A stretch of DNA of 64,000 bases from Halichondria panicea (taxonomy: Eukaryota > Porifera > Demospongiae > Suberitida > Halichondriidae). Under the pieces are notes generated by a model, which did no database searches, was not told where the DNA came from, and was given only the letters and a program-made list of their open reading frames with translations. The translations under genes were made by a program, and so were the position numbers. The stretch lies in contig NC_087387.1 in assembly GCF_963675165.1 (NCBI RefSeq), positions 4,614,990-4,678,989 on the forward strand, written 5' to 3'. Positions 1 through 61,840 of this stretch are shown here, in pieces; positions within the stretch are counted from its first letter, which is position 1, and each line of letters starts with the position of its first letter.

Positions 1-3000
1 GGCAGTTACTCCTGACAAAGCAGGTGCTAAAACTGATGCTGTTTCTCCAGAGTTAAGTGCAAGTACTCCGCCTAAAAAATCTGTCGGTGTGAAACGAACT
101 ATGTCCTTTGCACTCCTTCCTGAAGTAAGAGTCAGTAAAAAGTTGAAGTTTGCACCAAAAACATTTACAGTCACTTCCTCTAGTAAAATTGACGGGAATA
201 AAAAGAAACGAAGGTGGTCTTCAGGCAGAATGAAGTTGAAAAATTCATGCCAATCATCTGAAGAGGACGAAGTATCAAAAACGAAAAAACTGATGTCACT
301 TTTGAAAAAAACAAATATCACCCTCAGTACAGATATTCCCGGCAAGTCAGCGAACAAACAGATGGAGTTAGCGCTTAAATCACCCCCTACAAATTCTGCA
401 AGTGGTGGTGGTTTTGTACGGTCAAGGTCCCAGAGTGGGTATTGCAATGTACAGGAGATCCTCAAGCAGGCCAAACTGAGTTTGTCTAGAGAGAGTATTC
501 AAAACCCTATGCTAATTGAAGAACCACTGCCACTGACGCACAACTCAAACAGTGTCTCGGAGAAGTCGTCTGCACCTTCTACTAATAGTAAAGAAAAATT
601 AGTCAGCAACTCGAGCAAGAGTGGCAGCAACCAAGTTACACCAAGTCCTGAGGAAACCCTTCTCTCTCCTATTATAGCGTTATTAAAAACTAATACAAAT
701 ATTTCATCTGAGACCCAAAAACACGTTCCAAATAATGCCAGTTCCACGAAGGGAACAAAGATACGTGTAAGAAATCCATTCCAGAAGTCCAAAAATGTGA
801 CCGCAACGACTAAATCTGACTGTAAAGATTCTGATGTTGATATAAAAACTATGATGTGTATTGACGAAGGAACAACTACCACTGTACTCTCAGAGAGCTG
901 CAACCAAGCAACTATCAACCACAGTAATCTCAATGAAAATCAATCTGCTGAAAATACATCTTCTCCTATGAGCGTACAGCATGTTGAAAATATGAACTTC
1001 TTGCTATCCAAACAACCTTTTCCCACCATCACTGATCCCCGTGACGATGAACTCGGATACCTCATGGACCAACTTCTCCCAGATCCTATGGATGATATAA
1101 CGACGATGGACTTGGGGGGAGGTGCTCCCGTAGAGAGCGGAGGGAATCATTTACCACCAACTCTGCTAACAACTGAAGTTGAAACAAATGGAATTACGCA
1201 ATTATTTAATGGGAAAACAGTGTCTGAAACTTTTGATGGAAACATGCTAGCGTTGCTTGAAGAAACTTCTTCATTTAAACTTCCTTCCTCTCAAGAACTT
1301 TCCAAATTGATGCAAAATGCAATGGAATTAGCCGATGATACTTCTCAAGTTGCCATGCCTACCAACGACAATGCAAGTAAAGCCTGTTCCGTTCGTTCTT
1401 CTACATCCCCACTTGACTCACCATGCCTTGGGATTGGAGATCAAAATTGTTTGCCTAACTCTCAAAAAATTGAAGCAGACCCTGACCCACTCGAAAAGGT
1501 AAAAATGCTCAAAACTGAGTTGTACATGTGTCATTACTTTTATCTTCGTTGCTATGCAGGTCACAACGTTGCTCCATGCTGAATTGAGTTCAAACGTTCA
1601 AGATCTCAATAGAAGCACTGAGCACAGTATTTGTGATAATGATGACGGCACTTCTCAGAATGAGTCCGCTGAAAACAAACTATATTCCCTGAAGTCAGGT
1701 GCAAGTACTCCATCTTCACCTGGTGGCATTGCCGGCCAAGAAGACATCGATGACGTTAGAATTCAAGAAACCGAACACACTACAATACAGAACAATGGTA
1801 TGCTAAAGTCAGATGATGAGGAGTCAATAACAGACAATTTGTGCAAAGCTGACTCAGCAAATTCTCCGGAGCTCTCTGGACATGATGATATTATGCCACA
1901 ATCCAATGCCGTCTGTTTCGATAGCTTGAAGCCCTCACAAGTCAACCCTACAAATACAAAATCTGAGGCAACCATTCCCGATCTTGAACCACCTTCTCTG
2001 GACACAATATTGAACACCAACTCTTCATTATCGAATATTCAGCCCTGCGCGAACTCAAATTCCAACAACCATGAAATGCAGTCACCTAAACAGCACTCCA
2101 CCGATCCTGTCATTATCTCTGATCAGTCTATAGACTCACAATCTGAGGGGTTCAGGGAAACGTTGCAGCCATCTGAAGACCAATCCCTTACTAATCCATT
2201 GATGGACACCATACCATCCGAAGACCAAGACTCACAAGCCACTACCAATCCATCGATGGACAAACCATCTGAAAACCAAGACTCATACCATCCATTGATG
2301 GACAAACCATCTGAAGACCAAGACTCACAATCTCCATCAATGGACACTATACCATCCGAAGACCAAGCCACTACCAATCCATCGATGGACAAACCATCTG
2401 AAGACCAAGACTCACACCATCCATTGATGGACAAACCATCTGAAAACCAAGACTCACAATCTCCATCAATGGACACTATACCATCCGAAGACCAAGCCAC
2501 TACCAATCCATCGATAGACAAACCATCTAAAGACCAAGACTCACACCATCCATCGATGGACAAACCATCTGAAGACCAAGACTCACAATCTCCATCAATG
2601 GACACTATACAATCCGAAGACCAAGCCACTACCAATCCATCGATGGACAAACCATCTGAAGACCAAGACTCACACCATCCATCGATTGACAAACCATCTG
2701 AAGACCAAGACTCACAATCTCCATCAATGGACACTATACCATCCGAAGACCAAGCCACTACCAATCCATCGATGGACACCATACCGTCTGAAGACCAAGA
2801 CTCACAAGCCACTACCAATCCATCGATGGACAAACCATCTGAAGACCAAGAATCACAATCCCTTACTAATCCATTGATGGACACCATACCATCCGAAGAC
2901 CAAGACTCACAAGCCACTACCAATCCATCGATGGACAAACCATCTGAAGACCAAGACTCACACAATCCATTGATGGACTTACCATCTGAAGACCAAGACT

Positions 3001-6000
3001 CACAAGTACCTACCAATCCATCGATGGACACCACACCATCCGAAGACCAAGACTCACAAGCCACTACCAATCCATCGATGGACAAACCATCTGAAGACCA
3101 AGACTCACACAATCCATTGATGGACAAACCATCTGAAGACCAAGACTCACAATCTCCATCAATGGACACTATACTATCTGAAGACCAACACTCAAACAAT
3201 CCATTGATGGACGTACCGTCTGAAGACCAAGACTCACAAGCCCCTACCAATCCATCGATGGACACCATACCATCTGAAGACCAAGACTCACAAGCTCCTA
3301 CCAATCCATCGATGGACACTATACCGTCTGAAGACCAAGGCTCACAAGCCCCTACCAATCCATCGATTAGCACCTTTTTAGTGGAGCAGTTTCTCGGTGA
3401 TGACCAGCAATCAGGCTCTTCCGTTCTTACCCGCTCTGCTCAGTTAAAAAGTGCGGATAGTTTCAGCAAACCTGCTCTAGGGTTTTCTCCGCTCGTGACT
3501 GACAATGAACTCGGTGTCTCACACTCTACCTCTGCTTCATTAAAGTCTAGCGTGAAACTCGAAAATGGACAAACAAACGAACCACCTGAAACCACAGATT
3601 TAATCAACGGCTCAGGTACAAAGACAAACACTGAGAAAACCATGGTTGATCATAAAGACGATCCTTTTCTGCTAGATTTTGAGGAAGGTTTTGATTCGTT
3701 GTCAAACTTAAATTTCCGCAAATTGTACCCGACTCGTTCCAAGTCTCGCCCGGCCTCCAATCATGCTCTCTCCTTAAGCAAGGTTCTGGGTAAGCGAGGG
3801 AGGTCAGTTCCTATGGAACTAAAGTCCCCCTTCAGTGAGACGAGCAGTGTGGGTGACAGTGTGTTCGAGGAGAAGAAGTGCGATGCACCTAAGAGAGGGA
3901 AGAGGAAGAAGTGAGTGTGCGTGGGTGTGGGTGGGTGCGTGCGTGCGTGGGTGTGTGTGTAGACTAATATAGCTGCTCAAGGATCAGTATGTGCAAGTAA
4001 GAGTTTTTAGTCAAGTTTTCTGGATTTTAATTGGTGGATTTGCAAAATAATGCTTTGTTCTCGAGTTATGCCTAGTTTGCTTACTTGGAATGCCATTGCA
4101 GCCTTTTCAGAAGAGTCTGCAGCAAAACTTGTCATAGAGTGTTGCTTAGTAGTTAGCTCTGCACTGTAGAACGCTGGTAGCTGCAAGAGTGATAAGAGAG
4201 CTGCAAGGCCCTACTGATGCAGCAGCCATTACTTTTGACATCATTTTTAGCAGCAATCACAATCGATATTTTCCCACTCTTTGACTTTCCGTGTGATTCT
4301 GCCGGCATGCAGCAAAATCAATTAATGTTCATCATGATAATCATGTTACAGTTTCAAAAACACTATGTGATTGTTATTACTTTGGTTCTCTCGTGCATGA
4401 AAATATCACAATGAGAGCAACTTAATGTAAGTATACTCCTCACAGTTTAACTGAGAGCAGACCCTCCAGGAAGGTCAAAGTGTCTACTCCTCACTCCTCC
4501 ACCACCAGTGCACCTGATCTGGAGCCCTCTACCGCCCCCGACACACCCACGGAGCCCTCTACCGCCCCCGACACACCCACAATGGTGAGGTCGTTTGTGT
4601 GGATACACTGATCATTAATTAGCAGTGGTTATGTTGATGTGGTTAAAGCAATTAAAAGAGTAACTTGAGTATATTATTAAGTAATATACCGTATAGCGGG
4701 TAATTTTTGTGGGATAAAATATTCTATTTTCGTGGGTAAGCTGACCTCCACGAAATTTTAACGTAGGCGTGGCTTACCGGAACGTATAAGTGCAGGCAAC
4801 GAGACTTAACGAAAATTTTACTCGAAAACCACCGTTTTCGAGTTGAACAAATTTTTTACTCCACGAAAATTACCCGCTATACGGTACTGTATGCTACCTT
4901 TTATTGGATTGTACAGTCATAATCATGAATAATTTTTATTGTATAAAGTTCTTATTATAATTCACATACCATGGCAAACACAGTCTCTCAATTTTGTACC
5001 CTTTACTTTTCACTTTCACAGATAAAAAAAACAGTTTTCTCTCTTTTATCTATGCCGCCTCTCAATTACCACCCCCTCACACACACACACGCGCACACAC
5101 ACAGGTGGGGGACATTGTATGGGCGAAAGCGTCCCAGCTTCCCGGATGGCCTGGCCGGATAATTTCTCACAAGAAGAGGCGAGGGATGGGAACACCACCA
5201 GAGAACATGGTGTGTATGTATGTACAATGTATGTTGAGTACTTTGTGTAAATAACATTTGCCTTGACTACCTTCACTAGGTAACCTTGCTACATTTGTAG
5301 CTAGCCTATTGTACGTATACATGTACACGTAGGTGGATAGTAATGTATCGATACGTTGTGATCTACAGGGTGTCATACAGGGGGGGGGAAGAGGGATACC
5401 TCTCCAATCCCCCCCCCCTTTTTTTGCATTCAGGTACTAGTTGTATGACTGAGTGTCCTACTATAACAGGGTATTGAAATAACAGTTGACCCTTTTTTTA
5501 GCAAAATGTTCTGGTTACTTTTCTTATTTCCCCCTCTACTTCAAAATCCTGTATGACACCCTGATCTACTTGTAATTGCATTGTTGACTGATAAAATAAG
5601 ATCGGTTCCTAAAAGATTAATGTTGCCCTTTTGTCGAGAGATTGCCCTTTTCCCAGGTTTGTCTTTGCTGTAACTATGCTTAGGCAAGGTGTACGTTTGT
5701 GTGCGAAGTGAAAAATTTCTTTCAATTGTCATTAATTTGATAAATTTTCAGCTAGTGATAAATGGTATTGCAGTAATCTAATTTGCTACATTCATGTATT
5801 TACACAAGAATATTAATAATTCTCAGTTTTCGCAAGTTTTTCAAATTGCTCGCCCTGTGTTTATTCCTATGCAGGTATGGGTAGAATGGTTCGGTAGTGG
5901 GTCCACCGTCAGTATGGTGGATGTGGCTAATGTGAGGCCTCTGGAAGAGGGTGTCAAAACCAGAGGGGCATTCAAGAACAAGAAAAAGAAAAAATTGGAA

Positions 6001-20286: not shown

Positions 20287-20956
20287 CTACTTCTTTGAGC
20301 AGCCACTACACTTCAGGCTGAAGTATTTCCCTTCTTTGGTAACATAACTGGAAATAATTTCCTTCCCATTTTTACAACTAGCAACAACGATGAAATTCTT
20401 ATGACAGCCTCCATAAGGGTCAGAGAGATATCGATTAGATACCATTCCTCTGCAAGACTGCTTTCCCTCGCATTTGCTCTTGGCGTATGCAGTGCTTCTG
20501 ACTTCAACACTCTTTCGTAGCACACCTTTTGTGCAGGCGAGGCCGTAATAGGCATAGAGAATCTTAATTCCTAACATAAAAATAATTATATGCAAGATAA
20601 GTTGTGACACCATGATAATAATCATTGTGCATGTGTTTAACGAGCTTTTTGTTGATATAGCTGCTGTAAAATATTTTTGTATATTCTTACCAGCTCCCTG
20701 CTTTTCCACTTCTTCATTTTCTTGTACCACTTCACCCTCGTCCATCTATATTATAAATGTGAAGATGGAATCAAGGGGAGGAAACGCTATAAAATTATAT
20801 ACTCAAGTATAATTATACTCTTACTTCCGACATGTCCACCTGATTGGCTTGTAGGTATGCCAGCACTTCATCCATTTCTGCTTCATTAAATTCTGCAGCT
20901 TTGATACTGAGTCCAAGCATCATCACCATCACTAGAGTAAGAACGATCGTCTTCAT
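20287..20956 (-). CDS. Secreted SUEL/rhamnose-binding-lectin-like protein, copy 2
   Basis: Three exons on the minus strand: 20825-20956, 20691-20745 and 20287-20570, also 156 aa. It has the same plan as copy 1: a signal peptide starting MKTIVLTLVMVMMLGLS, a helical linker five residues longer (EFNEAEMDEVLAYLQANQ), the acidic spacer exon, then the lectin-type domain with AYYGLACTKG, KCEGKQSC and DPYGGCHKNFIVVASC. The C terminus is CSGCSKK instead of the Gly-rich end of copy 1. Intron positions and phases are identical to copy 1. The two proteins differ at many sites, so the duplication is not very recent. Expected to be secreted; ligand unknown. Confidence 0.87.
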
Positions 20957-26357: not shown

Positions 26358-29300
26358 ATGAAAGTGCTTTACTTGTCCTGTTGCCTCTACTTCTGGTAAG
26401 TATTGTATACATGTACATAACTTCTGACTAGACTCGGGTGATTAAAATATGTCGAGGTTAGCTTAGGACCTAGAAATATATATATGGACAATTCGATTGA
26501 TAGTAATTCTATTCAGAGAGCAAATTTTTTCACTCTGAAGGTTCCAACTCTTAGGAGCATCCTATTTACAAAGACCAAGGATCAATTTCGCTGGAGAGTT
26601 TAAGGCCGATGTCTCCACTATGAACAACAGAGACGAGAACTATGAACGATCAATGGAGAACGGGGAGGACCTGCAATTGCACAAGTGGTGGAATTGGAAC
26701 CCTGAAGGCACAAGCACTTGGGCAATAATGGACTGTGTAGTAACTTCAGTTGTGTTGGAAAACGGTTTAACCATAAATGACGAAGTTGTTGGCAAGCCGA
26801 TTGTGATTAATCCAGGTAGTTCCCTGCCTAAAATTGTTGATTTTAACTCAGCTAATAAGTTTTCCAGTATCATTTATGGTATGAAGCTAGGTATAAATTG
26901 GAACAGAGATGGAAAATCAAAGAATGCTTTTATTGGAGATTTTATACCGTCACCAGTTACTCACGAGCTATGGACACGTCAAGCAGATACTTCTAAATTT
27001 GCTAATGTAGGTGCTCGTGGTGTTTCTCAGCTTTCTAACGTACAATGGGCTGATCACCTGACTTCCGAAGCTTTAAACAATTTAAAAATACTTACGAATA
27101 GAGACAAAGTAAATGGCTACTCTCTTTCAATCATGCTTGCACTATTTGACTACTCTACAGATAAAGAAGAAAGGCTTTTTTATGGCAAGCTAGTTGGAAG
27201 TATTGGAGTCACTGAACTGGGAGAGTTTTTGGTGTTTCCTGTAAACAGAGTTCTAATGTTTACAGAGAATCCTCCATTACCAGTACCTTACCAGAGTCAA
27301 CTGTGTGTGTACAATTGGACTAATACTGCTTACTTTGATATCTTTGCCTCGAGAATGACTATTGATTTAAGTAACTCTCTTGCTTTGAACGTCAATGGTG
27401 AAGTATGCCATTTTTATCGTTACTATGCTGGCGTTTTGACAGACCAGCAAACCGTTGAAATTTTAGGTGAGATTCCATACATGGAGAAAAACTGGTACAG
27501 GAAAACAAGTGGCATTCAAGATTTCGATCTCGCAAGTCCTCATTTAGAGCGTGCTAAAAATCATCAAATTGTCGTTGTTGTCTTCAAAGAAGAGCCCTCG
27601 GAAATTAACCGTGTAAGATTTCCACTCTGTGAAAACTCCCTCACATATGGTATTGATAGTTGCTTGTACATTATTCTAAGAGAAGCTACTTACTTTATAC
27701 ATCCAATTAGCAGATACATCCTTCGACTAGAGAAAGGAGATTCGGTTCAAGTTAATTTGAAAGTGAAACATTACGGAAGTCAACCAAGCAAGCACATACC
27801 CGTCACACTTTGTGATAGCAGTCGCAGTGTACCTGCAACAAAATCAGATATCGAGTTTCAGAGCACACAAATAACAAACGATGCTGGCATTGCAACGTTC
27901 ACTTTTGTTGCTGGTGATGTTGGAAGTCCTAGGAAAGGTATCGACGGCCAACTGTTCAAATTTAACTATTGTGTATGCGAAGACTGTGAGACTGTGAATT
28001 GCTCTCAGTGTGAAGTGAAGGGTGGTAATCAAATTGTATTTCTGGTATGGAGTGATATTAAATATCAAATGCCGTATTATTGGGACACACACATTAAACC
28101 TATTTTCACTCAATATCAAAACCTTTATCCATCGATGAGCAAGATTATCAAACTAGGTGATTATGATGATGTCACTAAGCCTCTAAATATCGACTTGATT
28201 CTGTTTTCAATGTCTTTAGATCTCAATCACCCCAGCTACATGCCAGTGACGAGAGATCTTTCCCCAGCAAAAATAGATATGATAATCAAATGGTTGAAGA
28301 CTCCCGATCACCCCCGTAACCGAGAAGACGACAAGTTGTACGAATCACCTCCATTCTGCCATCAAACATACTTGTATAACGAAGAGAAACAAAAAATGAA
28401 AGAAGCTAGAATACAAATGGAATACTCATTTCCATGGATGAAACAATACCGTTCCAGCGGGTACATGAGAATACTTTTAGGTGGAACAGAACATTTTCTA
28501 CCAACACTTTCAGATTCTCATGTAACTCGTTCTTTTTTCGATGTTGCCATAGTTACACTGCCAACTTATGACAGGTTTCCGAATCATGTCAGTCCAGGTT
28601 ACTCTCATCTTCTCTCCGCCATTTTAAACCTAGATAGAAAACCACTACCAAATTGGTACACAAATCACTGCTCCAAACAATTGCTCAAAGAGATGTTACA
28701 GTTAGCCGTACAGTTAGAATTCTCTACCATTCCACCGTACTTGACAGCTCTTTACTCTATCAAGGATGGCTACAATCAAGAGGCATACGAAATCATTCGC
28801 TCTGTAGTCATGCAAGAAATGCTTCACCTGGCACAAGCGGCCAACCTGCTGATTGCTATCGGTGGACGGCCAATAATAGATAGTGCACAGGCTGTCCCAT
28901 CTTATCCCGGGAAGATACCGGGAGGAGTGTTACCTGGGCTAAATATAACACTACAGAAAGCATCTCCCAAGTATATAGCTGATGTGTTCATGATGATAGA
29001 ATTCCCTGACAACATCATTTACAAGGACCACCATACAGAAAAAGGAATTGAAACTCACGTACTTACAATTGGAAAGCTTTACAAACGTATACAAGAGTGT
29101 ATGGTTGAAAAAGAAAGAGACAATTTGTTCAAAACAGAAGTCAAGCAGCTCTCATGGCCATGGAAAGAACACGAAGAAGGTATTAAGCTGACGACTGTGA
29201 CCAATATAGAAGAAGCGATAGAGGCCATAAATATGATAATTGAGGAGGGAGAAGGAACTCCACAAAGAGACCCAACCTACTTGAAAACATCAGAGCTTGC

Positions 29301-29694
29301 TCACTTCTTCAAGTTTGAAACGCTCGCCTGCAAACATCATTTGAGAGTCCTCCATGATAACGATCAGTACATGTATGATTTCCGTGGTAAAAAGATAGAG
29401 TTCACATCTGAAGGTGTGTGGCCAATGAGAAATAACCCATCGTCTAAAACTATCCCCAGAAAATCACTTGCATACCGAGAGACTAAAATATTTCATAGCT
29501 TGTATCGTTCTCTATTGACTTTATTTCAAGAATCATTTGATGGACGACCTGACGCTATCAAAGAGGCTGTTCCAATCATGGAAGCAATGCAGCTACAAGC
29601 AAAGAAGCTGATGACTATGGAAGTACCCTCTAAACCTGGTCACCCAAAACAAACTTATGGTCCAACATTTGAATATATAATAGCGAAATTGTAA
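26358..29694 (+). CDS. Secreted VioB-like protein with ferritin-like domain
   Basis: Two exons: 26358-26395 and 26541-29694 (intron 145 bp, GTAAGT donor), giving 1063 aa. Exon 1 begins MKVLYLSCCLYF; joined to exon 2 it makes a typical signal peptide ending near LLGAS. The joined frame recovers RINFAGEFKADVST ahead of NNRDENYE, the start expected for this family. HKWWNWNPEGTSTW follows. A middle segment reads IKPIFTQYQNLYPSM and HPSYMPVTRDLSP. From about residue 720 a ferritin-like domain has QLEFSTIPPYLTALYSI and VVMQEMLHLAQAANLL, with the Glu and E..H metal-ligand pattern. Relatives are the bacterial VioB/RebD-type iminophenylpyruvate dimer synthases and fungal homologues; animals usually lack them. 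A Cys-rich patch (VCEDCETVNCSQC) lies near residue 490. Substrate unknown; extracellular location inferred. Horizontal origin plausible. Confidence 0.87.
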
Positions 29695-34452: not shown

Positions 34453-37400
34453 TTACCCAGAGCTGGAGACAGCCAACACTTGAACTTTGTTGACACGACC
34501 AAAACTGAGACACAAAGACGTTTATATTATGTACAAACATACACATATACCATCCAATGAACACAGCATTACAGACAGACAAGCAGTGTAAAGCAATGAT
34601 AGCTATGCATACAGGAAGGAATAGGTACAACTGTTGAAAAGTAAACTAATTATTCAGCATTCTAAAATAACATGCGGAAAAATAAAATGTAGGATATAGG
34701 GAGTGGAGTAGCAACTGTTATACAGAATGTGCTTGGTCAGTGCAAGGTACAAATGAAATCACCAAACATGACTTGAACAACATACGTGAGATAGTAGAGA
34801 GGGTTGGTCCTCTGTAACCAGGGGGTGGAGAACAGTTGATCCACCTGCTCCAGACTCAATTGCTAGAAGCAACGTGGTATATAGTGCAAAATTAATGAAT
34901 ACTGAAAGCAATTGCATTCCATTGAGTATGCAGTTTACAGCTGAATATACACAGTCATGCAGACACACATGCAGACACACACGGTATGATTTAACCGCTC
35001 CTTTGCAGCTACCCCCCCCCCCGAGCATAATTAGCAATATAATAGTGTTTGCTAATAAAAATGATAATTAAAAGGAGCTATACAGTTCTATAACAATGCT
35101 ATACACTGACGGAAATGCACCTAAGTGTATACCGAAATACAATGTAACCTTTACCTTAGTCTCTGGCAATAGTAGCAGTACAAATATAAAAATGAGGGCA
35201 CAGATGATGGTGTCGAGTAGGAGAGTCCCGGCAGTGCCCAAAGAAGAGGAGAGGAGGAAAGGAGAGATCTCCCCACTCACAATATTACCAACCCACCACC
35301 CGACAGATGCCACTGACATTGACACACCTGGGTGGGTGGAGGAAAACATCATCATTGAGTGACATAATTAAACCCAGCATTATTATTATACCGGTAAGAG
35401 TTCAGCTATAATAATAATACACTGCTGACATGTACATCGGATGCATAAAAGCTGCAACTGTATACCGTATGCATGGTTGATCAGAGGCCGCTCCTTGTAT
35501 AAAGGCCATATACTCAAATAGTAGCCTCCCTACACCCCATTTCCAGAAGCCGCTCTCAAATAGTAGCCTCAGTGAACTTTGAGGCTATGTCTCAGCTCGT
35601 GGCAGCCATAATTTTTGTGATAGGTACAGGTATCTACAGTAGCAGGTAAAAAACTTCTGATGACAAACTAAAGGTTGTTGAATTATATAGCTGGGGCTAA
35701 TAAACGCCGCGCCTCTTCTGCCAGCAAAATAAAACATTTAGTAGCCGCGGCCTAGCTCTGATCAAGTATATACGGTGAATGTTATGTCATAAAATATGAA
35801 ACTGCATGCATGAATCCATGGAGACAGACCTTTTATCTTTAATGGATACATCTCACTAACAACAGTCCAACTCTGACTCCTATAATTAGAAGAAAAAATA
35901 AGAAAGTTCAACTGATTCGTGACTCACACAACATATGAACCAACAGCGACAAACAGAGCGAGACAAGCCACGACAAAGTATCCTACGATGGTCCTGTCAG
36001 AGGAGAGCTGGTCTGCCTCAAGTCCAAACCCCAGAATGAGCCCTGAGGCCACTACCAGACAAACACCCATTCCCAAATACCCACACAGAATGATCAACTT
36101 GCGACCCAGCTGGGATGAGATAACAGACATATAAATCAAAACTCCATGTGCATTTCTAGATCTTCAAAATAAAAAATGAAAGCTTGTACTGTACTTTAAT
36201 GCTTACATGCACATAGTAACCAATAACAAGCTATATAGTGCACAAAGCTCACCCTGTCGGCAATGAGTAGTACTGATAGTTGTGAGATTAATTGAGACAA
36301 AGAAATGATTGCCCCTCCAATGAAACCAGACGTGCCGATCTTACAGAATATGGAAACTGAGAAATACCTGAACGCATAAACAGTACACAACCACTATAAA
36401 GGTATATACCATAATGCTTACACAGCTAGTGGCATTCCACTGAACCGTCCCAGAAACAGCAAAAAGAATCCCAAGAACAACCTACAACAAGATTGAAGGG
36501 TAAAGCTATAATTATGATTAATGCAATATTATATATAGAGATACGAATAGTAACCGACGATGTACTCCACCTGTGTGCAATGTCCCAGGACAAGCAAGTC
36601 TGCCAAAGCGTCTTCTTGAGCGAGCTGGGATTTCCGGTAAGAAGCTGATATGTCCTCCAGTCGAGACGCCCCAACTTGATCATCTTTGAAGATTCTCTTT
36701 AAAGTCTTGAGAGCTTTGTGTGGCTTGTTCTTTTTGACATGCCATCTGTAAGAGAACTGATCAAGTGAGACCCATGACAAATAATTCTCTCGGCGCTGGG
36801 TGTTGGGAAAATACACAGCTCTAGCATACTTTTTACATACGTACCTTGGTGACTCTGGAATGAGCGGTGATCCAATTAAGAGACAGCAGGCAGGAATCAG
36901 CTGTAGACCCAGCGACATTCTCCAACCAAACGACAACCCCTCAACCCCAATATTCACCAGAGAAGCAACCTGAGCGATCCACATAATTATCATGTTGACA
37001 TACTGCTTATAATTATTACCAGAGCTCCAACGGTACCTGTAGCTATACTCAAGCTGACCAGTTTACCGCGATGTTGTTTGGGGGCAATCTCAGCAAGGTA
37101 TATTGGCACAAGTTGTACAAGAATTCTGTGAGTGCATGCATGCACACATAATATACATGCAGTGTATATAATTATACTGCCATGCATATATACTGTATGT
37201 GATAACTTCATGACTGTATAATACGCTTATTTAATACATGTGTTGGATAACTGGCATACCCAACATTATTATTTTCAGTGCTCACCCATTTCCAAGACCA
37301 GTCCAAATCCTCCCAACCAGTAGCATCCTGTAAAAAATAAGTATATGAACAATCTATACGAAGCATTTGAACCTGCCATAAAGCGATTGCAGCACTCTGG

Positions 37401-53800: not shown

Positions 53801-56601
53801 ATCTATATACTTTCTTTTCTCGATGCACCCTGCACAGTTTATGATCCGGAGGAAAAACTTTGAGAGCTAACTATAGAAATGACAGGGGGGGGGAGCGTGC
53901 ATGCCAGTTATTATAAATCGCCGAGTTCCGAAAGACTTGCATGCATTGCTTTTGGATCTTACCTTGTCAGCAATCAGTAGCACCAAAATTTGACCAATTA
54001 ACAGTGACAAAGTGAGGATTACCGCTCCGATGAAACCAGATATGCCAATCTTGTAGAATATAGACACTGAGAAATACCTGCATAGAGATGTCAACTCAGG
54101 GTGTCATACAGGATTTTAAAGTAGAGGGAGGAAATGAGAAAAGTAACCAGAAAATGTTGCTAAAAAAAGGTCAACTGCATGTTATTTCAATACCCAGCTA
54201 TGGACACTCAGTCATAATTGAAAGGGGGGGGATATCCCCCCTTTCCCCCTGTATGACACCCTGCAACTTATAATGATTAATGTATACGGCATTAATGCTT
54301 ACAGAGCAAGTGAAATTCCACACATTCTTGACAAAAACAGCAAACAGAAGCCAAGAAAGAGCCTGCAAGTGTAAATTAAATAATGTGGGCTTAACCAACT
54401 CATACCTGTGAGCAATATCCCAGGAGAAAAAAGTCTTCCAGAGTGTTTTCTCGTACTGGGACTTCTGGTAAGAAGCTGATATCTCCTCCAGTCGAGATGC
54501 CACAACTCGGTCATCTTTGAAAATTCTTTTCAGAGTCTTCAGAGCTTTGTGTGGCTTGTTCTTCTTAACATGCCATCTGAAAAAGAGTATAATTATAGAC
54601 TAGTGTTTGAATTCATTTCCTCCATAACACAATAATTATTAGTTTTACTGCATATCGATATGAAGCCTGCATGTGCCATAAATTTTATAAATGATAATTA
54701 TACTTAATCTAGCTGTTTGTTGTGTAATCCACCTTGGAGATTCTGGGATAAGCGGTGATCCGATAATGAGACAGCAGGCAAGAATCAGATGTAGACCCAG
54801 CGACACTCTCCAACCAAACGACAACCCCTCAACCCCAATATTCACCAGAGCAGCAATCTGGCAAAGACAAGCCAAATTATTAATACTTAAGTCTATTTGT
54901 GTTGAGTTCAAGCTCGGAAGTTATGTGGTCAATTATGGCTTCATTTATGCTTTATGTGGTGGACATGTATGCCTGGGACTTCTACATGGAAAATGCTAAC
55001 TTTTAGCTGGTTGGAGCTTACCAGCTCTACAGCATATAGGTAGAAGCGCTTTTTAACAAGGAATCCAATGGTATAAGAAACTTTGAATTTCAGTAAAGTA
55101 TGACAAAGTTATGACAACTTTATGAAGGTCAAACTCAATACAAATAGACCTTTTTTTTTAAGTATACACAAAGCTTACCAGATTTCCAGTAACGCTTGCC
55201 ATTGATGCCAAGCTGACCAGTCTACCACGATATTGTTTGGGGGCAATCTCAGCAATGTACACTGGTACTGATTGTACAATAATCCTACGAGTGCGGCATG
55301 CATGCATGTGCATGAGTTTGATACAATTATACACTAGTATATAGTCACATTCAATCACTGATTGGTTATCACTGCAACATACCCAAGTCCTAGTCCTGAC
55401 CAAATCCTTCCAATCAAAAGCATCCTATATACATCCACACTCAAACACAAAAAGCTTTTCACAATAAAGCAACCTGCCATAAAGCCATTGAAGCACTCTG
55501 AATGACGATTCCAGAGGCAAATAGTAGTGCCCCGATCACTAGAGCAGCCCTCCTCCCAGCCCAGTCTGACAGGGGTCCCCCTAATAGAGCACCCACCAGA
55601 CAGCCTAACGAGAACAGGGCCACCACCAGACCCTGAGGAAAGTTTGAAGACCTGGTCTTTACGTATAATTAGCCTTGGACCCATATCATAAAGCCTGGAG
55701 AGTCATTAATTGAAACACTTCACGCAAGGAGCTCAGTTGATCTACAAGAACTCACTAACTCACTAAGATGGCACTAGTTTCCTCACTGGAGTCCCCAGTG
55801 GTGGAGTTGTCCTCTGAACCCGAGAGGTTGAAGAAATCTCTAAAACCGTTCATCTCCTTCACTCCATTACTAGAACTGGGGTGGGAGGGAATTCTTGAAT
55901 TACATTTTGGACACTCAGTGTATTATATCTGCTTTAAAATAATTATAGTGGATTTTGTGTGTATATATACTATCTAACCAGTACCTCAACCAGTACAAAG
56001 TGGCGCGCAGCAGGGGTAGAGTGATTGGTGTGTGTGTGTGTGTGTGGACATAACAACGAGACAGTGGTTGAAAAATAATAGGCTAATGATAATATCGTAT
56101 AGAGGGTAATTTTCGTGGGGCTGGTTTTCGTGGTTGAATTAAGGTCTGACCACGAATATTTTACCCACGAATGAAGCCGACCTTTACCTGCAGTGCAAGC
56201 AGCAACCACGAAAATATTACCCACGAAATGTCTCAATATTGCTGAACCACAAATATTTTGTCCCCCGAAAATTACTCGCTATACGGTTTAAAACTCGTAG
56301 AAGGCGACGAAAAACACTGTTTTCTAATCGATCTAATCTTGGCTTTCTAGATTCCCAATCATTCTCTCCATGCATATAATGTTAAGGTCTATGGTAAAAT
56401 CTATTCGCAAATCTAAGCTAACGCACGGCTGGGGTAAATGCTCGATCTACGAGCATCTTGTGTAATAATACGTAGCACTCTAGCCGATCAAAGTGTAGAT
56501 CTATCTCACCCGATATCGTATCCACTGAGGAACCAAGATGAGCCAATGAAGGCAGAGCAGGTCACCACATAACACCACTTGCACCCACATCCAGGTGCCA
56601 T
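50852..56601 (-). CDS. Sugar-porter family MFS transporter, copy C
   Basis: Fourteen exons on the minus strand: 56510-56601, 55764-55875, 55478-55632, 55383-55424, 55179-55284, 54733-54857, 54406-54576, 54303-54362, 53963-54077, 53502-53686, 52698-52747, 52353-52525, 52158-52234, 50852-51005; 538 aa, open throughout. Same family marks as copy B: GGPLSDWAGRR, MLLIGRIWSGLGLG, VPVYIAEIAPKQYRGRL, PESPR, FGRK. The PETK motif is PETM here, and one helix has GCLVG instead of GSLVG. Tail ends DKVTRDTDKLTQTL. B and C share intron sequence and are the youngest pair of the array. Plasma-membrane sugar or polyol transport is expected from the family; substrate unknown. Confidence 0.86.
51079..51205 (+). 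repeat. Two-unit tandem repeat of ~63 bp in transporter C intron 13
   Basis: The unit TTCCAGGCCGCTCTCAATTG AGAGATAC.GTCTGGTATAC ACTGTTTACAACTAGTG occurs twice in direct orientation, each carrying the palindrome CTCTCAATTGAGAG. Confidence 0.85.
52939..53288. mobile_element. 350-bp element with CAGGGGCGTAGCCAGG ends in transporter C intron 10
   Basis: Inverted ends CAGGGGCGTAGCCAGG / CCTGGCTACGCCCCTG, flanked by CTACC (52934-52938, 53289-53293). The homologous intron of copy B reads uninterrupted GCGGCTACACCCCAAGGC near 46190, an empty site. Same end type as 19498 and 21978. Confidence 0.88.
54097..54263. mobile_element. 167-bp MITE with CAGGGTGTCATACAGG ends in transporter C intron 8
   Basis: Inverted ends CAGGGTGTCATACAGG / CCTGTATGACACCCTG, flanked by CAACT (54092-54096, 54264-54268). 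The matching intron of copy B (about 47285) lacks it. Sister of 5366-5563. Confidence 0.88.
56095..56286. mobile_element. TA-flanked MITE (family 1) in transporter C intron 1
   Basis: Ends TCGTATAGAGGGTAATTTTC and GAAAATTACTCGCTATACGG, flanked on the left by TA. The homologous point in copy B (after AAAAATAATAGGC near 50190) lacks the insertion. Confidence 0.78.
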
Positions 56602-59327: not shown

Positions 59328-61840
59328 AATAAGAGTCAAGCTTGATTAGTACGAAAAAGGTTGTGGGCTGAAAGGGAATAAAGATGTGTATACGTACCAA
59401 TCATGCTTGTATGTATGTACTCACAGATTTTTACAACCCCACCCCCCCAAAATATATACTTTCAGTGTGAAAAAGGCTGTGGGCTGAAAGTGAGATAATT
59501 ACATAGATCAATAAAGATGCGTATAATTATACGTAGCAATCATACATGTTTGTATGTACATGTATGTACCCACAGATTTTTACAACCCCACCCGCAAAAA
59601 AATAACCTCCATGCGTGCAGATACTGTACTCCAGTAACTAAGCTTACCCTGTCTGTAATAAGTAGTACCAACAGCTGTGCTGTGAACAAAGACAGGCCCA
59701 AGACCACTCCACCAATAAAACCAGATATTCCTATCTTGCAGAAGATAGAAACTGAGAAGTACCTGAGTGGTACACGAGTAAGAAATTAATCATCCTTTTC
59801 GAAACATCCAATCACTGATACAACACTTACAAGGCTAGCTGCATTCCGTTAAATCTTGCAAAGAACATTATACTGAATCCCAGAAAAAGTCTGCAAAACA
59901 AAATAACAATTTTAGGCAGATAAATTATTATACTCCATTCACCTGTGCGCTATGTCCCAGGACAAGCAAGTCTGCCAGAGTGTCTGCTTGAGCTGGGATT
60001 TCCGGTAAGAATCTGATATCTCCTCCAGTCGAGATGCCACAACTTGGTCATCTTTGAAGATTCTCTTCAGAGTCTTGACAGCTTTGTGTGGCTTGTTCTT
60101 CTTGACATGCCATCTGAAAGCAGATCAAGAGTCTCCTGAATTAGTATATTCATGACTATGAATAATTTATATAGAATTCAAATTACCCATAGTCAGAATA
60201 TGGATAGCCTCCCGCTGGTGTAACAAAAGTACTCCAGCACTGTACATAAACTCTCTCCTTTTTAAGGCAACCAAACACAATAAGTACTATTGTCCTTAGT
60301 TGTCCATTGTATATACCTTGGAGACTCCGGGATGAGTGATGATCCAATGACGATCCCACATGCTAGTATCAGCTGTAGACCCAACGACACTCTCCAACCA
60401 AATGGCAACCACCCAACCCCAATATTTACCAGAGCAGCAGTCTGTAGAGAAAAAACAGGACACATAGTATGCGTAGGCAAGATTAAGAAAACACACACAC
60501 AACAGGTGAAGAAAGCAATGCTATGGGGCAGCTACCATACCTATTATCAGAGCATATACAAAGTTGCATGTGATGGGTAAAGAATTTCATGTACCAGGAC
60601 TCCAGCTGTGGCTGCTGTTGACGATAGGCTGACCAGTTTACCACGATGTTGTTTGGGGGCAATCTCAGCTAGGTACATTGGCACAACTTGTACTATGATT
60701 CTGTGAGTGTGTGAGTAGAGAGCAAAGAAAAGATGATGGCATTAAAGCAATCATGAATTTACTACACCGAAACGTACCCATTTCCAACTCCTGTCCAAAT
60801 CTTTCCCACCAGCAACATCCTGTACACAAGCAATGCTACACTCATGCACACAGTACAACCTCACATCAAAGCAAATCATTCCAATACGCGACAACAAAGC
60901 AACCTGCCATATAGCGATTGCAGCACTCTGAATGATGATTCCAGAGGCAGCTAGTAGTGCTCCGGTCACTAGAGCAGCCCTCCTCCCAACCCAGTCTGAC
61001 AGGGGTCCCCCTAATAGAGCACCCACCAGAGAGCCTAACGAGAACAGGGCCACCACCAAACCCTGAGGGAATGAATAATGGCTAGTGTTCGACTCAATAA
61101 TTACATGTATAGTATAACTAACGTACAAGAATGTTGAGTTGGTGGCAGATAATAGCAAGACCACGTAAAGTTACACCACTAAACACACACACAAAGTTAT
61201 GCAATTAATATACTGACCTAAGAGGATAGAGATATTAGAGAGAATTAATGGACGTTGATGTATGTAGAGGTCTTTGCTTAATTACACACTCTAAAGGCAG
61301 CCTGCAGAAACCATCGTGCATGAAGTACTGCTTGTCCAGTTAATACATCGAGCACACTGTGCATGTACAAAAACGGGTACTCACTAAGATGGCACTAGTT
61401 TCCCCGCTAGAGTCCTCAGCGGTGCAGCCAGTGGTGGAGTTGTCCTCTGACCCTGAGAGATTGAAGTACTCTCTGAAACCACTCATCTCCTTCACTCCAT
61501 TACTAGAACTAGGGGAGAAGGGACGTCAGTTGTTATGAATAATTATGTGCCGCATGCGCAAACAGTCGATACCATAATAGAATGTCTGAGTCGTACAATT
61601 CCTCGAAATACAACGATTTTGCAGGCCTGTGTACGTGTAAAACTGAAGCAGTACCATGCATGCAAGCAGATTTGTACAAGCTCCCTCGCCCTAGCCCTAG
61701 CCCTATTTGGAAAAGCTTACCAAGCTATAGTAATAGGCTCACCCGACATCGTATCCATTGAGGAACCCAGCAGAGGCAATGAAGACAGAGCAGGTCACCA
61801 CATAACACCACTTGCACCCGTACCCGCAGCCTGAAGACAT
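57064..61840 (-). CDS. Sugar-porter family MFS transporter, copy D
   Basis: Fourteen exons on the minus strand: 61743-61840, 61385-61508, 60908-61062, 60778-60819, 60595-60700, 60317-60441, 59943-60113, 59831-59890, 59648-59762, 59028-59212, 58850-58899, 58457-58629, 58055-58131, 57064-57217; 544 aa, open throughout. Start MSSGCGYGCKWCYVVTCSVF. Loop 2-3 motif GGPLSDWVGRR near residues 92-102; MLLVGKIWTGVGNG; VPMYLAEIAPKQHRGKL; PESPR near 215; FGRK near 333; LLPETK at 462-467, followed by QLSLEQVDQLFSTPW. The exofacial loop after helix 1 carries an NSTTG sequon, a likely glycosylation site. Closest to copy A and fragment E by exon 1 and 2 sequence. Family function is proton-coupled or facilitated sugar/polyol transport. 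Confidence 0.87.
57755..57990. mobile_element. MITE (family 1b) in transporter D intron 13
   Basis: Begins CTGTATAGCGTGAAATTTTC and ends CTCGAAAATTTTGTATGC; middle shares ATGGCTTTTAGAGGCCAATC with the complement of 44861-45108. Boundaries approximate. Confidence 0.55.
59237..59326 (+). repeat. (TG)n microsatellite in transporter D intron 9
   Basis: About 45 TG units with one interruption near 59249. Length is expected to be polymorphic. Confidence 0.95.

Follow-up and report, generated by a model that had tools for sequence, protein, structure and literature searches.

An animal gene family of distant two-module VioB relatives, probably bearing a secretory leader

The locus and its gene model

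The window analysed here is a stretch of 64,000 nucleotides of DNA, in which positions 26358-29694 (+) carry a gene modelled as a 38-nt exon 1 and a long exon 2 separated by a 145-nt GT-AG intron, encoding a predicted protein of 1063 aa. The protein is laid out as a hydrophobic leader, a beta-rich N-module and a ferritin-like module. The long exon falls in a stop-to-stop frame of 1051 open codons (26539-29694, +), and the predicted intron has a TG/GTAAGT donor, a GAAG/G acceptor and phase 2. A single long exon preceded by a small 5' exon and a 145-nt intron had been proposed in a sequence-only reading of this DNA, and the splice model agrees with it at sequence level. The features are as follows.

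26358-26395 (+): exon 1, with MKVLYLSCCLYF and two bases of W13 the greater part of the hydrophobic leader, from the splice model, recurrence in paralogues and shuffles
26396-26540 (+): predicted intron, 145 nt, GT-AG, phase 2, with a like junction in five other paralogues
26541-29694 (+): exon 2, remainder of the 1063-aa protein and the stop codon
26541-26559 (+): last part of the predicted leader, through A19, from alignment and hydropathy
26560-28341 (+): beta-rich N-module, residues 20-613, from profiles and model; a separate gene in two-gene bacteria
27970-28011 (+): Cys-rich loop CVCEDCETVNCSQC, in six of eight paralogues
28342-28641 (+): inter-module linker, from alignment; low model confidence
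28642-29691 (+): ferritin-like C-module, residues 714-1063, from PF12902, profiles and model
28696-29325 (+): PF12902 match proper
28717-29304 (+): putative metal-site codons E739, E772, H775, E833, E917 and H934

A distant relative of VioB

The C-module matched PF12902 (Ferritin-like) with 179.3 bits against a curated cut-off of 22.3 (1.3e-52). In the AlphaFold2 model (mean pLDDT 80.0, pTM 0.60), which carries no metal, the N-module is beta-rich and the C-module helical. The best match among solved structures was 3hl1 (Foldseek, E 5.1e-08), the Caulobacter protein CC_0557, which shares the ferritin-like module by sequence as well (E 6.6e-08) but, with 317 residues, consists of the C-module alone; its entry title names no function. 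Complement C3-type Foldseek matches (E 3.7e-05 and above) were not taken as homology, their TM being about 0.09 by query.

VioB proper was rejected, as judged by 17.5 bits with the VioB model TIGR04492 against an equivalog cut-off of 1250. Nevertheless, module profiles built from the window protein and four bacterial joins, with no VioB among them, detected four VioB sequences at 42.5-54.6 bits for the N-module and 21.0-27.8 bits for the C-module (bits are quoted because the E-values refer to a set of only 12 sequences). Both homologous modules and the six putative metal-site residues are thus shared with VioB, as in the wider VioB-type two-module family, while several family blocks differ. 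On these sequence grounds the window protein is a distant two-module VioB relative. The earlier description of the protein as VioB-like therefore stands for the architecture, whereas the nearest relatives found belong to an unnamed, ebo-linked bacterial family. Of the family blocks that had been read from the sequence, QYxNLYPxMS, YMPxTRDLS, LExxTIPPY and EMLH recurred in the family alignment; HKWWNW did so in part, the five aligned bacterial sequences reading mostly WWNP or WNP.

VioB is an intracellular enzyme encoded in the vio operon. We take the chromopyrrolic acid synthases RebD and StaD, by description, to belong with VioB. Their likeness to the window protein is likewise one of description: in passages of PMC10851217, these enzymes couple two aromatic imines, and CPA synthase is a haem enzyme joining two tryptophan imines.

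Bacterial relatives and their ebo neighbourhood

A tblastn search of plasmids gave 165 records, eight of which cover at least 80% of the query; in all eight, the match falls on adjacent genes annotated as a hypothetical protein followed by a ferritin-like protein. An alignment-based scan of species genomes then gave 69 bacterial loci in Pseudomonadota, Bacteroidota, Acidobacteriota, Myxococcota, Cyanobacteriota, Verrucomicrobiota, Planctomycetota, Actinomycetota and SAR324, so that the family spans at least eight phyla. Relatives occur as gene pairs or as single chains, for example in Azospirillum, Mycetohabitans, Aureibacter, Undibacterium and Acidobacteriota, both modules lying in one frame in 13 of the 69 loci. 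Single-sequence scans of the genome-contig and viral-contig collections returned no relative, and a phage search no match to the window protein.

The unnamed bacterial pairs match the animal protein over both modules and share its family blocks and putative metal-site residues. They differ in being only 28-36% identical to it and in having few cysteines, a shorter linker and, in the five starts inspected, no leader. Three family proteins from bacteria had no NCBIfam match at 1e-5.

Three or more ebo genes were found in the retrieved DNA of 22/69 loci, one in 1/69 and none in 46/69, a denominator that takes in short contigs; single-chain loci with ebo genes numbered two of 13 (L018 and L022). 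By annotation, ebo genes follow the pair at L002 and L003, and a TatD gene and a dehydroquinate-synthase-like gene precede it at L004; the DNA viewed at L001 and L005 had no ebo genes. No tryptophan oxidase appeared among the selected frames in neighbour scans of seven bacterial loci. According to passages of PMC6282210, the ebo genes of Nostoc export an aromatic precursor that is then dimerised oxidatively, and a Pseudomonas cluster required against nematode grazing includes a full ebo cluster. By analogy, we infer a role for the bacterial family in making or coupling an aromatic product. The ebo neighbourhood thereby offers a first functional hypothesis for this unnamed family, namely an aromatic product made or coupled for export.

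At three bacterial loci (L053, L058, L077) the two-gene unit occurs twice in succession. Remoter N- or C-module-like frames (51-73 bits) lie near the main pair at L025:1277-2758 (+), L066:11386 (+) and L004:15213 (-), the last counted on the reversed strand; the frame at L025:1277-2758 matches PF12902 at 1.2e-35.

An eight-copy family in an animal genome

The host assembly comprises 131,455,214 bases in 39 contigs. Wnt matches above the Pfam cut-off on three contigs identify the host genome as that of an animal, as the sequence-only reading had held. Searching it with PF12902 gave eight loci on five contigs, with stop-free frames of 1051-1154 aa (the longest on C14): two each on C11, C14 and C3, those on C14 and C3 being neighbours, and one each on C6 and C1. 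The C11 pair consists of the window copy and a copy 87% identical to it, about 445 kb away. With eight such loci, the window gene is no stray; it had been seen as one gene, a real locus indeed, but seven further copies had been missed.

Five of the 28 pairs of copies have dS below 0.3, with dN/dS of 0.28, 0.25, 0.27, 0.29 and 0.33; the ratio is 0.16-0.19 in six remoter pairs, whose dS is about 1.6-1.8, and the other 17 are saturated. The substitution pattern thus indicates purifying selection on the animal copies, and the family is real, selected and multi-copy.

The Cys-rich patch noted earlier (VCEDCETVNCSQC) is present at 27970-28011. Four or five clustered cysteines occupy this site in six of the eight paralogues and none in both C3 copies; the cluster is absent from the five aligned bacterial sequences. 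Non-family matches near the eight copies are short frames, taken for repeats without a repeat library. The genome also has three short pieces of the family (C6:2273561-2273731, C11:5090058-5090159, C6:4466230-4466322), one of them interrupted by a stop; they are likely duplication remnants, and two lie close to intact copies.

Origin of the animal family

Trees were built on the animal copies of this genome, bacteria and VioB alone. Module pairs numbered 74 from 75 loci: L006, L064, L082 and L083 yielded none for want of a partner, and two pairs came from each of L053, L058 and L077. The eight animal copies formed one clade with support 100. A simple-model tree rooted on VioB, in which this clade branched outside all bacteria, carried a long-branch warning and was discarded for rooting. 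In a mixture-model tree of 57 rows, built after removal of the four VioB and of 25 rows that were near-duplicate, partial or long, the animal and bacterial single-chain forms lay on one side of a branch with SH-aLRT 98. Taken by module, this grouping had values of 51 (N-module) and 96 (C-module). With VioB included, its rows joined those of the animal and of the bacterial single-chain forms against the 41 two-gene rows (96). The topology therefore favours a single-chain bacterial ancestor for the animal family, and the trees would fit a transfer from such an ancestor. The horizontal acquisition proposed earlier gains from the bacterial kinship and from the grouping with single-chain forms; the low N-module support for that grouping and the VioB-rooted simple tree, with the animals outside all bacteria, speak against it.

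The strongest competing account is that the gene is of long standing in eukaryotes, or arrived through a fungus or an alga and not straight from a bacterium. We give it substantial weight, though less than an even chance. The animal stem is long (1.79 changes per column in the mixture-model tree), identity to the bacterial relatives is only 28-36%, and the sequence-only reading placed family members in fungi as well. On the other side stand bacterial members in at least eight phyla and the grouping of the animal clade with bacterial single-chain forms, both of which are still compatible with a eukaryotic intermediate. On balance, we hold it somewhat more probable than not that a single-chain VioB-type enzyme was acquired horizontally, multiplied to eight genes in the animal and came to be sent into the secretory pathway.

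Putative metal site and retention of activity

E739, E772, H775 and E833 are present in 74/74 bacterial rows, E917 and H934 in 73/74, and all six in the eight animal and four VioB rows. The sequence-only reading had left it to be seen whether metal ligands align; E739, E772 and H775 do so with the E and ExxH residues of bacterioferritin 1nf4, which bind iron there. The residue after E739 is H in 72/74 bacteria, F in all eight animal copies and L in VioB. With F in place of H, the chemistry of the animal form may differ.

This substitution, the added cysteines with the Cys-rich loop, and the neighbourhoods of the eight copies, in which we recognised no partner gene common to all, would also suit a secreted protein that is no longer catalytic and has a structural, iron-binding or defence role. 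We regard such a protein as rather unlikely, since none of the six putative metal-site residues is lost in any of the eight copies and whole-protein dN/dS is 0.25-0.33 in the close pairs, although selection alone is no proof of catalysis. The earlier suggestion of lost enzyme function is disfavoured on the same two grounds.

Leader exon and predicted secretion

For each copy, we searched 5' of the conserved AG/G acceptor for an ATG exon ending in a phase-2 donor, with donor weights and a hydropathy scale that were preset and not fitted. As a control, the upstream DNA of each copy was dinucleotide-shuffled 100 times, and we counted the shuffles in which a hydrophobic ATG exon with a phase-2 donor did as well as the candidate. 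In C11a, C11b, C6, C14a and C14b, the top candidate reads MK...W and ends in TG/GTAAGT; C14a also has a longer leader from an upstream ATG, with the identical donor and a slightly higher score. The C1 candidate is MHKFQWVQLLVLLW, with a weaker donor. Shuffles matched the candidate leader in 1/100 cases for C11a, C11b, C14b and C3b, in 0/100 for C6, C14a and C3a, and in 10/100 for C1. C3a and C3b are 93% identical and their best candidates are unlike, so at least one of these must be wrong. A predicted leader exon at the same phase-2 site is thus clear in five copies and likely in a sixth, C1. The hydrophobic leader on a 5' exon, as first read, is supported by this recurrence and by the shuffles (1/100 for the window gene).

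Alignment with five bacterial N-proteins points the same way. In these, M-S[YF]L opens the chain and leads into R, F, G and ADVSTVNN-like blocks; after its leader, the window protein reads SYLQRPRINFAGEFKADVSTMNN. S20 is the residue aligned to the one after the initiator Met in the bacterial relatives; the bacterial starts thus align just past the animal leader, which would replace the initiator Met. Each animal copy contains between 15 and 21 cysteines, whereas the 74 bacterial rows have 0-12 (median 5). N-glycosylation sequons, three to seven per animal copy and with a bacterial median of 4, show no clear difference. The animal family probably bears a secretory leader. Cutting before S20, as predicted, would leave a mature protein beginning at the bacterial start. 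Such a protein, with its many cysteines, may fold in the ER and act in vesicles or outside the cell.

Could exon 1 be wrong, the protein beginning at an in-frame ATG and remaining cytosolic? The ATG at 26620 (M40) does open 1024 codons. However, this start would lose S20, L22, R26, F29, G31, F33 and T39, each present in at least 70/74 bacterial and 8/8 animal rows and, F33 excepted, in 4/4 VioB rows; an upstream exon is needed to retain them. The lost segment also includes a confident strand in the model, and the leader exon is found again 5' of diverged paralogues, making a cytosolic start very improbable. Bacterial contamination of the assembly, which a bacterial-type protein on a long, nearly intronless exon might recall, has a negligible probability and was rejected, given the predicted intron, a gene GC of 0.39 similar to the surroundings, the presence in the same window of a lectin match below threshold and of exons for sugar transporters, the Wnt genes, and the spread of the eight copies over five contigs of 6.5-18 Mb; this concern of the earlier reading is thus excluded.

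A possible role for the animal enzyme

If the animal family is a transferred enzyme rerouted to secretion, it may, by analogy with the bacterial one, carry out a related coupling in the secretory route. The ferritin-like bundle would hold iron, at a non-haem site that E739, E772 and H775 would form together with one or more of E833, E917 and H934, or alternatively as haem, as reported for RebD and StaD. A flavin oxidase would turn aromatic amino acids into alpha-imino or alpha-keto acids, two of which the bundle and the N-module would couple oxidatively; the resulting aromatic dimer would have a protective role. The specific coupling chemistry is put forward tentatively, and pigment or defence chemistry, as the earlier reading supposed, may be its use.

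The animal genome has 40 PF01593 amine oxidase matches, 15 of them near-full-length, of which 13 are stop-free. Three flavin oxidases tested lay near monoamine oxidases, polyamine oxidases and L-amino-acid oxidases, respectively. The L-amino-acid-oxidase-like frame lends little weight because such enzymes are common, and amine oxidases as partners of the family are a weak lead. The near-full-length frames (L113-L119) include G000 C16:5192884-5200007, C7:3694772-3722328 and frames on C10 and C3; several are clustered and some have leader-like starts. EboE, the only ebo gene tried, gave no match in the animal genome and matched in 3/3 bacterial controls.

Many marine-animal alkaloids are presumed to be of symbiont origin. 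An animal-encoded, probably secreted VioB relative with intact putative active-site residues would provide a testable host-side route to such compounds. One may speculate, with low expectation, that the animal itself makes dimeric aromatic alkaloids through a transferred, expanded and secreted VioB-type family that carries out, outside the cytoplasm, the coupling which in bacteria would be paired with ebo-dependent export. The product would then be a pigment, sunscreen or feeding deterrent of the kind usually credited to symbionts. For the terms searched, no published mention was found in the main texts of PMC4784904 and PMC13342648.

Other features of the window

Searches of the window for tRNAs and with Rfam gave no match. 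An 803-codon frame at 1503-3914 (+) consists mostly of a 42-bp tandem repeat array (2235-3367, PSMDKPSEDQDS-like) and has no Pfam match. At 20290-20745 (-) lies a SUEL-type lectin-like domain with 21.1 bits, under the Pfam cut-off of 31.4. Three sugar-transporter exons are present on the minus strand (36532-37062, 54201-54599 and 60754-61170), two of them above the Pfam cut-off. The first two have a nearly identical stretch in common, which suggests sugar-transporter genes in tandem.
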